DNA of 17,752 nt from positions 1-17,752 of the forward strand of contig JAOUHR010000006.1 in the NCBI GenBank assembly GCA_029884515.1, given 5' to 3'. The number at the start of each line of letters is the position of its first letter. The first letter of the stretch is position 1. This DNA comes from Gemmatimonadota bacterium. Its GTDB lineage: Bacteria > Gemmatimonadota > Gemmatimonadetes > Gemmatimonadales > Gemmatimonadaceae. The position numbers and the translations under genes were made by a program. The notes under the pieces were generated by a model. That model was not told the origin of the DNA and ran no database searches. It saw only the letters and a program-made list of their open reading frames with translations. This document shows positions 2,540-4,250 of this stretch, one piece after another.

Positions 2540-2609
2540 GTGCGCACGGGGGTCGGCGCCCGCCCCATGTGCGCCGGAGCGGCAGGCCTGGTCCCGCCAG
2601 CGCGGCACG

Positions 2610-2637
2610 TTGACATTGGTAGCGACTAGCTACTAAT
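2610..2637 (+). promoter_or_regulatory. Promoter of the NrtR-like gene: perfect -35 with probable -10
   Basis: TTGACA at 2610-2615 is a perfect sigma-70 -35 box. About 15-17 bases downstream lies TACTAAT (2631-2637), an AT-rich match to a -10 box in otherwise GC-rich DNA. The implied transcription start (about 2643-2645) falls on the two possible ATG start codons at 2642 and 2645, and there is no purine-rich ribosome site before them. This suggests a leaderless transcript. Seen: the boxes and the spacing. Inferred: promoter activity. Confidence 0.6.
2615..2637. promoter_or_regulatory. Palindromic operator between -35 and -10 (candidate NrtR-like autoregulatory site)
   Basis: Inverted repeat with 9-bp arms ATTGGTAGC (2615-2623) and GCTACTAAT (2629-2637) around the 5-bp spacer GACTA; 8 of 9 arm positions pair. 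It fills the gap between the -35 and -10 boxes of the regulator gene just downstream, where a bound protein would block RNA polymerase. A site of the same 9-5-9 geometry and similar half-sites is found at 3383-3405 before the next gene. Binding by the regulator is inferred. Confidence 0.6.
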
Positions 2638-2641
2638 TGGA

Positions 2642-3325
2642 ATGATGAAGCGCGACCGCTCCACCACTGTCGCGCGCGCCGGCCGCGGGTCGGCCGCCCT
2701 CGACCTCATCTGCTGCACCGCCGTCGACCGGCGACTCGCCGTGCTCACCACGGTCGGGCCGGGTGCGCGTGGGCGCGGACTCCCGTGGACGCCGCTCGAT
2801 CCGAGGGGCGCCCTGGATGTCACCGTCCTGCGATGGACGCGGAAGCTGCTCGGCCGGGCGCCGAGCTGGATGACACAGCTCGGCGCGTTCAGCGCGGGGG
2901 GTCGCCATCCGTCCGGCGCCGCGCTCACGGTGGCGTACCTCGCGGTGGTGCCGGTCGGCACGGAGGCCCCGGATGGGCTCACCTGGTCGCCCGCGACGGA
3001 ACCGCCGCCGCTCCCGCCCGGCCGCCAGTGGATCCTCGACGCTGCGATCGCCGGCTTGCGGGACCGGATGGACATCGCCCCGGTCGCCTTCCGGATGCTC
3101 CCTGCGACCTTCACGCTCTCCGACCTGCAGCAGGTCTACGAGCTCCTGCTCGGCCGGCGCCTCCACAAGGCCAGCTTCCGGCGCGCGCTGCAGGCGGCCT
3201 TCCTGGTGGAACCCACGGATTCCTGGCGCTCCGAGGGGCGGGGCCGGCCGGCCCAACTCTATAGATATGCCCCCCGAAAGCGGCGCGGGGTGCGCCGGTC
3301 GGTCCGGTTCGAGCTCTTGGGCTGA
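2642..3325 (+). CDS. NrtR-type transcriptional regulator (degenerate Nudix domain + winged helix)
   Basis: A 227-residue protein with the two-part plan of NrtR (Nudix-related transcriptional regulators). Residues about 19-105 are a Nudix-like fold: the ending LGAFSAGGRHPSGAALTVAYLAVV (80-103) corresponds to the family's LYTFGDPGRDPRGR...VAYLALV region. The catalytic Nudix box (REx2EExGx) is absent: where it should be the protein reads ALDVTVLRWTRKLLG, so it should bind, not hydrolyse, a nucleotide-like ligand such as an ADP-ribose compound. Residues about 155-209 are the C-terminal winged helix: FTLSDLQQVYELLLGRRL, then KASFRRAL and the wing GRGRPAQLYRY. Known NrtR proteins repress NAD-synthesis genes, but none is seen here; the likely target is the adjacent gene of unknown function, which has a similar operator. 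The ATG at 2642 or at 2645 may be used, probably leaderless. A basic tail (PRKRRGVRRSVR, 211-222) follows the wing. Confidence 0.82.
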   Translation: MMKRDRSTTVARAGRGSAALDLICCTAVDRRLAVLTTVGPGARGRGLPWTPLDPRGALDVTVLRWTRKLLGRAPSWMTQLGAFSAGGRHPSGAALTVAYLAVVPVGTEAPDGLTWSPATEPPPLPPGRQWILDAAIAGLRDRMDIAPVAFRMLPATFTLSDLQQVYELLLGRRLHKASFRRALQAAFLVEPTDSWRSEGRGRPAQLYRYAPRKRRGVRRSVRFELLG

Positions 3326-3350
3326 GCGGAGACGGTATCGCGACAGGACC

Positions 3351-3381
3351 GTGACACCTTCCCCTGCGCGCCGGGTACTAT
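3351..3381 (+). promoter_or_regulatory. Candidate promoter of the small gene at 3422
   Basis: GTGACA (3351-3356) matches the -35 consensus at five of six positions and TACTAT (3376-3381) matches the -10 at four of six. The spacer of 19 bases is longer than ideal. It sits in an AT-rich patch in the 96-bp gap after the regulator gene. The expected transcription start (about 3388) lies inside the palindrome at 3383-3405. Confidence 0.4.
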
Positions 3382-3382
3382 T

Positions 3383-3405
3383 ATTAGTTGCAAGGTGTAT
3401 CTAAC
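3383..3405. promoter_or_regulatory. Second palindromic operator candidate of the NrtR-like regulator
   Basis: Half-sites ATTAGTTGC (3383-3391) and GTATCTAAC (3397-3405) flank the 5-bp spacer AAGGT. The outer TTAG/CTAA is perfectly symmetric and alternate inner positions also pair. The left half differs at only one of nine positions from the reverse complement of the right arm of the site at 2629-2637, and arm length and spacer length are identical. It overlaps the expected transcription start of the 3422 gene, a typical repressor position. Confidence 0.55.
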
Positions 3406-3410
3406 GGCAT

Positions 3411-3418
3411 AAGGAGGG
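3411..3418 (+). promoter_or_regulatory. Strong Shine-Dalgarno site fixing a GTG start
   Basis: AAGGAGGG ends three bases before the GTG at 3422, with its AGGAGG core about five bases away. It is the best ribosome binding site seen in the window and supports GTG at 3422 as the start of the small gene. It contrasts with the adjacent regulator, which has none. Confidence 0.8.
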
Positions 3419-3421
3419 ACG

Positions 3422-3781
3422 GTGCTGACCTACCTCGACGCCATGATCGATGCATGCTCGGTGCGCGACGCCGCGGAACTCGACCGGCTGCTCGCCCACC
3501 CGCTCGCCAGGACCCTCACCGCCGCGGTCCGCGACGAAGTGACCGCCATACGCGATGGCACCGGGGATGCGCTCGTGGCGCCGCTGCGCCTCCTGCGGCT
3601 CCGCCACCAGACCGCCGAGTTGCTGCGCGACGCGCCCGTGGTCGCCGACCGGGCAGAGTCCGCGGAAGTCGTCGTGGTGCCGGGACTCGCCGACACTCTC
3701 AACCCCGTGCGCCCAACGAGCCGTCCGCGCGAACGCCGCAGTGGGCGCCTGGTCCAGATGGAGTTGCCGCTCTCCGCGTAG
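3422..3781 (+). CDS. Small protein of unknown function with sliding-clamp-like C-terminal motif
   Basis: A 119-residue protein that I do not recognise as a known family. Residues 1-72 are rich in Leu, Ala and Arg and look alpha-helical, followed by a short beta-like EVVVVPGL (82-89), a basic probably disordered linker (95-109, rich in Arg, Pro, Ser) and the C-terminus LVQMELPLSA. QMELPL (112-117) resembles the hexapeptide that binds the DNA polymerase beta sliding clamp: QLSLPL in Hda and QLVLGL in Pol IV. A motif at the end of a flexible tail is where clamp ligands often carry it. There is no signal peptide, membrane segment or cysteine pair. It follows the NrtR-like gene by 96 bp, has its own candidate promoter, a matching palindrome and a strong ribosome site, and ends at a strong terminator. 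Function, and regulation by the NrtR-like protein, are inferences. Confidence 0.75.
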   Translation: MLTYLDAMIDACSVRDAAELDRLLAHPLARTLTAAVRDEVTAIRDGTGDALVAPLRLLRLRHQTAELLRDAPVVADRAESAEVVVVPGLADTLNPVRPTSRPRERRSGRLVQMELPLSA

Positions 3782-3794
3782 CGCGTCGCAAGCG

Positions 3795-3827
3795 AAGCGG
3801 CCCCCGGTCGTGGACCGGGGGCCGCTT
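3795..3827. terminator. 15-bp perfect hairpin between convergent genes
   Basis: Arms 3795-3809 (AAGCGGCCCCCGGTC) and 3813-3827 are perfect complements around the 3-base loop GTG, starting 13 bases after the stop of the + gene and ending 25 bases from the stop of the - gene. AA/TT ends but no long T run. Most likely a bidirectional terminator. Confidence 0.8.
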
Positions 3828-3852
3828 CTGCTTCAGGCCAGTTCGCTCTGGG

Positions 3853-4062
3853 CTACGCGGCGCCGGCGATGTAGCGCGCGATGCGTCCGCAGGCCGTGCA
3901 CTTGAGCGTGACATGCGAGCGCGGCGGCGGCGGAGCCTTGCGTGGCTCCCGGTTGATCGTGCCCGAGCATGACGGGCAGCTGAGCGGGTCGCCGTTGCGG
4001 TCGCTCGAGATGAGGTTGAGTGCTTGCGCGGGATTGTACGCGTTCGGTCGTGGCTTCCGCAT
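3853..4062 (-). CDS. Small zinc-ribbon protein of unknown function
   Basis: A 69-residue protein with two CxxC knuckles, CPSC (Cys29, Cys32) and CTACG (Cys55, Cys58), separated by a Pro/Arg/Lys-rich loop (KAPPPPR, 42-48). This is the spacing of a zinc ribbon, which could bind nucleic acid or another protein. The N-terminus MRKPRPNAYN is basic. The ATG at 4062 is preceded on its strand by GGAG nine or so bases upstream, supporting this start; a much longer in-frame extension exists but lacks coding character and spans an AT-richer, promoter-like region. It converges on the NrtR-block gene across the hairpin at 3795-3827. I cannot assign a specific function. Confidence 0.75.
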   Translation of the reverse strand: MRKPRPNAYNPAQALNLISSDRNGDPLSCPSCSGTINREPRKAPPPPRSHVTLKCTACGRIARYIAGAA

Positions 4063-4250
4063 GCGTTCTCCGGCTGAGTTCTGGGCGTCGCACCGTACGT
4101 GGTGGATCGCAAATCTGTGACTGAAAGCTAATCGGACTTGAGCTAAATCCAAGTGGGGACTGAGCTTGCGCGTAAACGGATGGATCGGACCCCTGTCACA
4201 ATTGACAGGTTGACCTGCTAACTGATTGTGGTGAGAGGAGTTCGGCGCGC
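4063..4250. other. AT-richer intergenic stretch upstream of the zinc-ribbon gene
   Basis: The longest non-coding stretch in the window, clearly less GC-rich than its surroundings. It contains an imperfect direct repeat, GACTGAAAGCTAATC (4119-4133) and GACTTGAGCTAAATC (4135-4149), 16 bp apart, and the palindrome at 4192-4209. It probably holds the promoter and control sites of the zinc-ribbon gene. I could not pick a convincing -35/-10 pair on either strand and see no protein or structured RNA I can name. Confidence 0.5.
4192..4209. promoter_or_regulatory. Palindrome CCTGTCA-CAAT-TGACAGG, possible operator
   Basis: Perfect 7-bp inverted repeat with a 4-base centre, lying 130 bp upstream of the zinc-ribbon gene start. 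TTGACA within it (4202-4207) is followed directly by a related TTGACCTG. Size and symmetry fit a dimeric regulator's site; no T run follows, so a terminator is less likely. Which protein would bind is unknown. Confidence 0.35.

Follow-up and report, generated by a model that had tools for sequence, protein, structure and literature searches.

The window analysed here is a 17,752-nucleotide stretch of DNA from a metagenome-assembled genome (G000; 2.74 Mb in 548 contigs, 77% complete); among the relatives that have names, the closest carry the labels Gemmatimonadaceae, Gemmatimonadetes or Gemmatimonas. The window carries a gene for a regulator of the NrtR/AraR family, followed by a gene for a small protein, hereafter the neighbour, with a candidate operator before each of them (Table 1). 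A gene for a bacterial Fe(2+)-trafficking (YggX-like) protein (2261-2536) lies immediately 5' of the regulator gene, and its end was visible by eye adjoining the regulator in several relatives. In G008 (L019) and G001 (L023), the regulator gene overlaps or directly follows the yggX-like gene; in neither case is there an auto-site, a match to the neighbour or the basic tail at the regulator's C terminus. The sequence GTGACA is found at 3351-3356, and in many listed relatives it occurs about 25-60 bases 5' of the neighbour's site.

Table 1. Features of the regulator and neighbour genes in the window
Feature	Position	Strand	Sequence or basis
TTGACA, probable -35 of the regulator gene	2610..2615	+	Sequence; TTGAC kept in relatives
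Operator 1 (candidate), 9-5-9 palindrome over the regulator's probable promoter	2615..2637	.	ATTGGTAGC-gacta-GCTACTAAT
Regulator gene, NrtR/AraR family, 227 aa	2642..3325	+	Pfam NrtR_WHD 6e-21, AraR_C 3e-11
Nudix-like effector domain, eroded, residues ~18-143	2693..3070	+	Relatives' alignment/profile
NrtR winged-helix DNA-binding domain, residues 149-208, best-conserved part	3086..3265	+	Pfam and alignment
Operator 2 (candidate), 39 to 17 bases 5' of the neighbour start codon	3383..3405	.	ATTAGTTGC-aaggt-GTATCTAAC
Probable ribosome-binding site of the neighbour, AAGGAGG	3411..3417	+	Sequence
Neighbour gene, small protein of 119 aa, GTG start	3422..3781	+	Alignments of homologues
Candidate beta sliding-clamp-binding hexapeptide QMELPL, residues 112-117	3755..3772	+	Homologue alignment and motif literature

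A sequence-only reading of the window had described the two palindromes, and their sequences and coordinates proved exact. It had also placed the first one between a -35 and a -10 element. The TTGACA stands and shares one base with the palindrome. The right half of operator 1, TACTAAT, occupies the position expected for a -10, but a sigma-70 scan of 2540-4100 found no promoter above thresholds, so that the -10 is a reading and not a match. The first site pairs at 8/9 positions, as well as or better than which 14 of the window's 23-mers pair (at least 8), and the second pairs at 6/9, a level reached by 440 of them. Palindromicity alone is thus ordinary in the window, and the palindrome count was rejected as evidence. 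Both sites fit one motif, TTAGTNNCNNNNNGNNACTAA, with at most two mismatches (2 found versus 0.04 expected; 0 of 200 shuffles reached 2), this motif having been picked after the relatives had been seen. The half-sites are TTAGTNNC, with the neighbour's site showing its own variant, approximately TTAGTTGCAANGTGTACCTAA. Throughout the available window genome, the two sites are the sole matches at up to one mismatch; at two mismatches there were four matches, and likewise four for the reversed control pattern.

Judged by comparison among relatives, both palindromes are real, and their conservation is the decisive evidence. Of 30 regulator loci, 26 have a 23-bp site of this geometry 5' of the gene, as do 21 of 27 neighbour loci; the regulator count leaves out the matches G018:C145, G019:C6, G025:C4 and L029 (G042). 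The earlier claim that matched sites precede both genes was thereby confirmed, and it withstood the refuting outcome named with it, a lack of conservation among relatives. At the regulator site, mean pairwise identity among relatives was 0.66, compared with 0.28-0.44 in three flanking 23-mers; at the neighbour site it was 0.80, compared with 0.31-0.41 in the flanking 23-mers. Among the 26 aligned relatives that have a regulator site, 25 carry TTGAC immediately 5' of it, and the best-conserved sites are close 5' of start codons, at similar distance. No recognisable sites were seen at the regulator or the neighbour in G027. We infer with high confidence that the regulator binds the 23-bp sites, and their positions are compatible with the repression that had been proposed for both genes.

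Searches of Pfam, NCBIfam, PADLOC and PHROGs gave no match for the neighbour; PADLOC and PHROGs gave none for the regulator either, and on these absent matches a defence or phage origin of the pair was dropped. Alignment of 24 neighbour members revealed about 70 conserved N-terminal residues, a linker of varying length and sequence, and then a tail. Among the 120 homologues listed of 1328 matches, Q[MIL][ED][LIM][PS]L lies at most 12 residues from the end in 119, with QTELPL in the remaining one; the variants include 76 QMELPL, 16 QIEMPL and 10 QIEIPL, and the looser Q-x-x-[LIVM]-x-[LFIM] occurs beyond residue 55 in all 120. Composition alone would place a motif of this type among the final 21 residues with a chance of about 0.002 per protein. 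The tail was present in 0 of 168 called open reading frames, a weak control, as in L178 the calling failed to recover the gene of the neighbour itself. One homologue (L013) has no such tail, and another (L025) has QADLGF. In the accessible portion of PMC12309361, QLSLPL is given as Hda's tight-binding clamp motif and QxxLF as the common one; MutS carries QLALF, QFGLF or QLGLF in the four loci listed, and DnaN is present. The neighbour's tail, though a short motif, looks like that of Hda in its Q-hydrophobic-x-L-P-L form, here as a candidate only. The neighbour differs from Hda and other clamp-binding proteins in that its N-terminal domain has no Pfam match, and the motif is joined to this domain by the variable linker. 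It is reasonably likely that the neighbour binds the sliding clamp through this tail.

Alternatively, the operators may be right and the neighbour a partner or anti-repressor of the regulator, with a tail that is no clamp motif. Among 61 genomes, a regulator match was found in 29 (28 of the 60 besides the window genome) and a neighbour match in 24. Of the 29 with the regulator match, 20 have the two genes adjoining each other (<700 bp). This adjacency, together with the lack of any known family for the neighbour in the four databases, would suit a partner. However, each gene also occurs without the other: the regulator match stands without a neighbour match in G001, G008, G010, G019, G025, G031 and G032, with a weak one in G042, and the neighbour match stands without a regulator match in G022, G026 and G036. 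Because the tail moreover fits the hexapeptide type published for Hda, as far as that source could be consulted, we consider a partner or anti-repressor rather unlikely. In a wider set of 200 genomes of the phylum, the neighbour was found in 46, all of which belong to the family of the window.

The winged-helix domain (PF21906) scores 74.8 bits in the window regulator against a cut-off of 27 and is almost invariant among the aligned regulators, bearing out its description as NrtR-like. Pfam NUDIX gave no match in the window regulator; of three relatives scanned, it matched P0121 and L010 and not L022. By eye, the window regulator retains no glutamate of the REUXEEXGU part, of which several relatives keep one. 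A profile of 23 relatives aligns across the N-domains of AraR and SoNrtR, and its best match among solved structures is AraR (5bs6, 8e-32), with NadQ and SoNrtR also matched. For NCBIfam NF050029 (NtrR equivalog), the window regulator scored 61.2 bits, below the cut-off of 400. Arg41 and Arg98 of SoNrtR, reported as ADP-ribose contacts in the available part of the BtAraR paper PMC4666351, align with non-arginine residues in the window regulator (hand numbering, offset 3); an arginine near the first of these positions is retained in some distant members. Four regulators of the same genus (L018, L022, L024 and L026) have no RHP loop. NAD sensing by the window regulator is unsupported, because the known ADP-ribose contacts of SoNrtR are not kept, and the erosion of its Nudix-like domain speaks against ADP-ribose as the signal. 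We claim no ligand, since the arginines are replaced and the RHP loop is missing in the four same-genus regulators.

The site was also found before other genes. A matrix trained solely on the regulator and neighbour sites (25 and 18 sequences) detected a site of more than 15 bits, in some cases in tandem, 5' of a SIMPL (DUF541) gene in 19 of 24 loci of genomes with the regulator versus 0 of 6 without it (one-sided Fisher p = 0.0008, the genomes being related and the counts not independent). The scan covered 30 SIMPL loci, with G041 and five second places outside it; G004, G012 and G013, which have no regulator match, have no SIMPL match and so fall outside the six. Of these 30 loci, 26 have a parA gene 3' of SIMPL, among them 18 of the 19 with a site and 5 of the 6 without a regulator; the nineteenth site-bearing locus (L150) is truncated by the end of its contig. 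The order mnmG, site, SIMPL, parA, parB was observed in G011, G017 and G018, and one of the two tandem sites in G018 overlaps the SIMPL gene as called, at its first codons. In G021 and G035, the site lies 5' of parA-parB without SIMPL, between another gene and parA-parB, at about 900 bp and about 450-550 bp from parA, respectively. At 5 of the 24 SIMPL loci with a regulator (G019, G020, G021, G031 and G032) the site is missing, and three of these have parA behind SIMPL. These comparisons suggest, with good confidence, that the regulon extends to parAB.

A site was further found about 395-455 bp 5' of a ribonucleotide reductase gene (Ribonuc_red_lgC) in 7 of 16 same-genus loci versus 0 of 14 others, again in related genomes, when 30 of the 36 reductase places were scanned. 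It exceeded 15 bits in G001, G003, G006, G010 and G014 and reached 10.8-13.6 bits in G008 and G016. In the former five genomes the reductase site and the regulator pair are on different contigs, so that proximity to the origin is not known for these sites. Rfam gave nothing at the gathering threshold in L167, L169, L170 or the window, and a cobalamin riboswitch in front of the reductase, which had been considered, was thus unconfirmed. In the window genome, the reductase gene is without a site and the mutS position scores only 4.1. No SIMPL match was found in this 77% complete genome, nor an origin-type parA (best match 37% identity), so the two sites counted there are a lower bound.

These targets bear on the proposal of the sequence-only reading that the two genes form a private switch answering to ADP-ribose, NAD or a similar nucleotide. 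The family does include ADP-ribose-responsive NrtR proteins, according to the partly available literature, and the window genome, as far as it is assembled, shows only two sites. Against this, the same site precedes SIMPL-parA and, in some species, ribonucleotide reductase, which makes a two-gene regulon too narrow for the family, and the nucleotide-sensing part of the proposal is not supported, in view of the missing NUDIX match, the best structural match to AraR and the replaced arginines, besides the RHP loop absent in the four regulators named above. We therefore regard the private switch as improbable. As that reading had noted, no NAD-synthesis gene was found among the neighbours searched with Pfam and NCBIfam profiles; none for NAD synthesis or salvage was noticed at the strong sites, mostly read by eye, in a regulon sampled by patterns and selected loci.

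Pattern counts were compared with a reversed control. In 37 genomes, the strict pattern TTAGNNNCNNNNNGNNNCTAA occurred at 22 places, versus 24 for the control; within the family the figures were 19 versus 10. Fifteen of the 22 places are at the pair, two before SIMPL behind mnmG (G008 and G017), one upstream of parA-parB (G021) and four elsewhere. With one mismatch, 41 matches versus 18 were obtained in the family and 4 versus 12 outside it, and with two mismatches 84 versus 253. The strict-pattern counts alone prove nothing, given the 24 control places. Matches in the order-level outgroup (L082, L083 and L095) were judged to be chance from the genes read by eye. Genome-wide counts of this kind rest on pattern searches plus selected stretches.

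Position relative to the origin was read in G011, a single contig with dnaA at base 1, followed by dnaN. Allowing two mismatches, G011 has 11 matches (reversed control, 19), of which the five best flank dnaA, three on its right (at 64.1, 64.8 and 22.5 kb) and two on its left (at 71 and 18 kb). Two of the five are of the same kind as the training sites; the other six score at most 8.1 and are scattered. The five best of G015 are within 140 kb of each other, with weaker ones (14.1 and 11.0) on other contigs, and the three best of G005 are within 43 kb, with two weaker ones (18.0 and 12.5) more distant. Matrix scoring of match positions covered four genomes, G020 being represented by the matches listed. 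The regulator and SIMPL are 38-51 kb apart on the same contig in 11 genomes (G005, G010, G011, G014, G015, G017, G020, G025, G027, G029 and G030) and more than 700 kb apart in G031 and G032.

Of 30 mutS loci, 14 also contain an operator-matrix match of 15-30 bits within the 3' portion of the gene, with 14 of 26 for loci with the regulator versus 0 of 4 without it. The match falls at the codons for [FL]V[SA][VL]RNY, for example in L226, L228, L231, L240, L241, L245, L246 and L251, the peptide pattern being unmatched in 9 of the 30 loci. Of seven low-scoring loci with the peptide, six have TAC where the high scorers have TAT. The contrast is suggestive only, and mutS is not claimed as a firm regulon member. 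Similar sites (13-20 bits) lie by a gene for an ABC-transporter-type ATPase (L210:2558, L212:2632 and L168:2065, in G011, G015 and G016), and in G020 (C1, 208-256 kb; L172, L173 and L219) several extra matches lie around mutS, an M16-type peptidase gene, mnmE and yidC, as these genes were read by eye.

Alternatively, the palindromes may be mainly origin-proximal chromosome sites, bound by an organiser or origin factor, and operators only in part. The clustering of the best G011 matches round dnaA would agree with this, as would the matches within the mutS coding sequence and further ones in or between coding regions of G020. The best-conserved sites, however, are those at similar distance before start codons; parAB and the pair lie near the origin of G011 in any case; and the reductase sites of five genomes are on contigs other than the pair's. 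On balance, we think a mainly chromosomal role of the sites has little probability. Ordinary as palindromes are in the window, chance palindromes without function can be dismissed, given that the sites are conserved over many genera and that the SIMPL site is missing from genomes without a regulator match.

We thus favour a regulatory circuit, to whose whole we assign a probability of about 0.6. A Gemmatimonadaceae regulator of NrtR/AraR fold would bind the 23-bp palindromes as a dimer and, seated on its own promoter and on the start region of the neighbour, would block RNA polymerase, so that the regulator and the small protein would both be repressed. The small protein would dock on the beta sliding clamp by the Q-hydrophobic-E-L-P-L tail at its C terminus. 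Across the family, the SIMPL-parA-parB cluster would come under the same regulator, as would ribonucleotide reductase in some species, and the regulon, much of it near the origin, would serve chromosome replication and segregation.

This circuit may be compared with known members of the family, described in the sources as partly consulted. MsNrtR has 23-bp palindromic operators in mycobacteria and is reported to repress itself (PMC6800001). The window regulator resembles SoNrtR and MsNrtR in its PF21906 winged helix, in palindromic operators of similar length and in an impaired Nudix signature, and the palindrome at its own promoter, a predicted operator, parallels the auto-repression of MsNrtR. 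It differs from ADP-ribose-responsive NrtR proteins in lacking the arginines, from NrtR proteins of NAD metabolism in that its predicted targets are chromosome genes, and from the mycobacterial proteins in operator sequence (GTTTTCGA-N7-TCGAAAAC there). The Bacteroidetes proteins AraR and XylR are NrtR-family regulators of sugar use with a 21-bp semipalindromic motif and tandem sites at one operon (PMC4666351). The best structural match, the AraR_C match, a semipalindromic motif and tandem sites connect our regulator with AraR; unlike AraR, which governs arabinose use, our regulator had no sugar-use genes that were noticed at the sites seen here.

As far as the sources were available, published family members control the metabolism of NAD or the use of sugars or, in Pseudomonas, have an influence on secretion, and no description of an NrtR-type regulator of chromosome replication or segregation was found in the titles and abstract beginnings covered. 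The expectation that the output of the system would be new is supported in this respect, although sugar outputs of the family are already published (PMC4666351, in the part available). The NrtR family is known, and the target set and the small protein are new. More tentatively, an NrtR-fold protein may have become a regulator of the chromosome cycle in the Gemmatimonadaceae, one that, through operators gathered around the origin, sets the levels of parAB, the reductase and a new clamp-tethered replisome protein; the latter might in turn signal the replisome's state to the circuit. If the favoured circuit is true, a ligand-sensing NrtR fold would be connected with chromosome replication and segregation, and the result is a short list of targets together with a new candidate partner of the sliding clamp.
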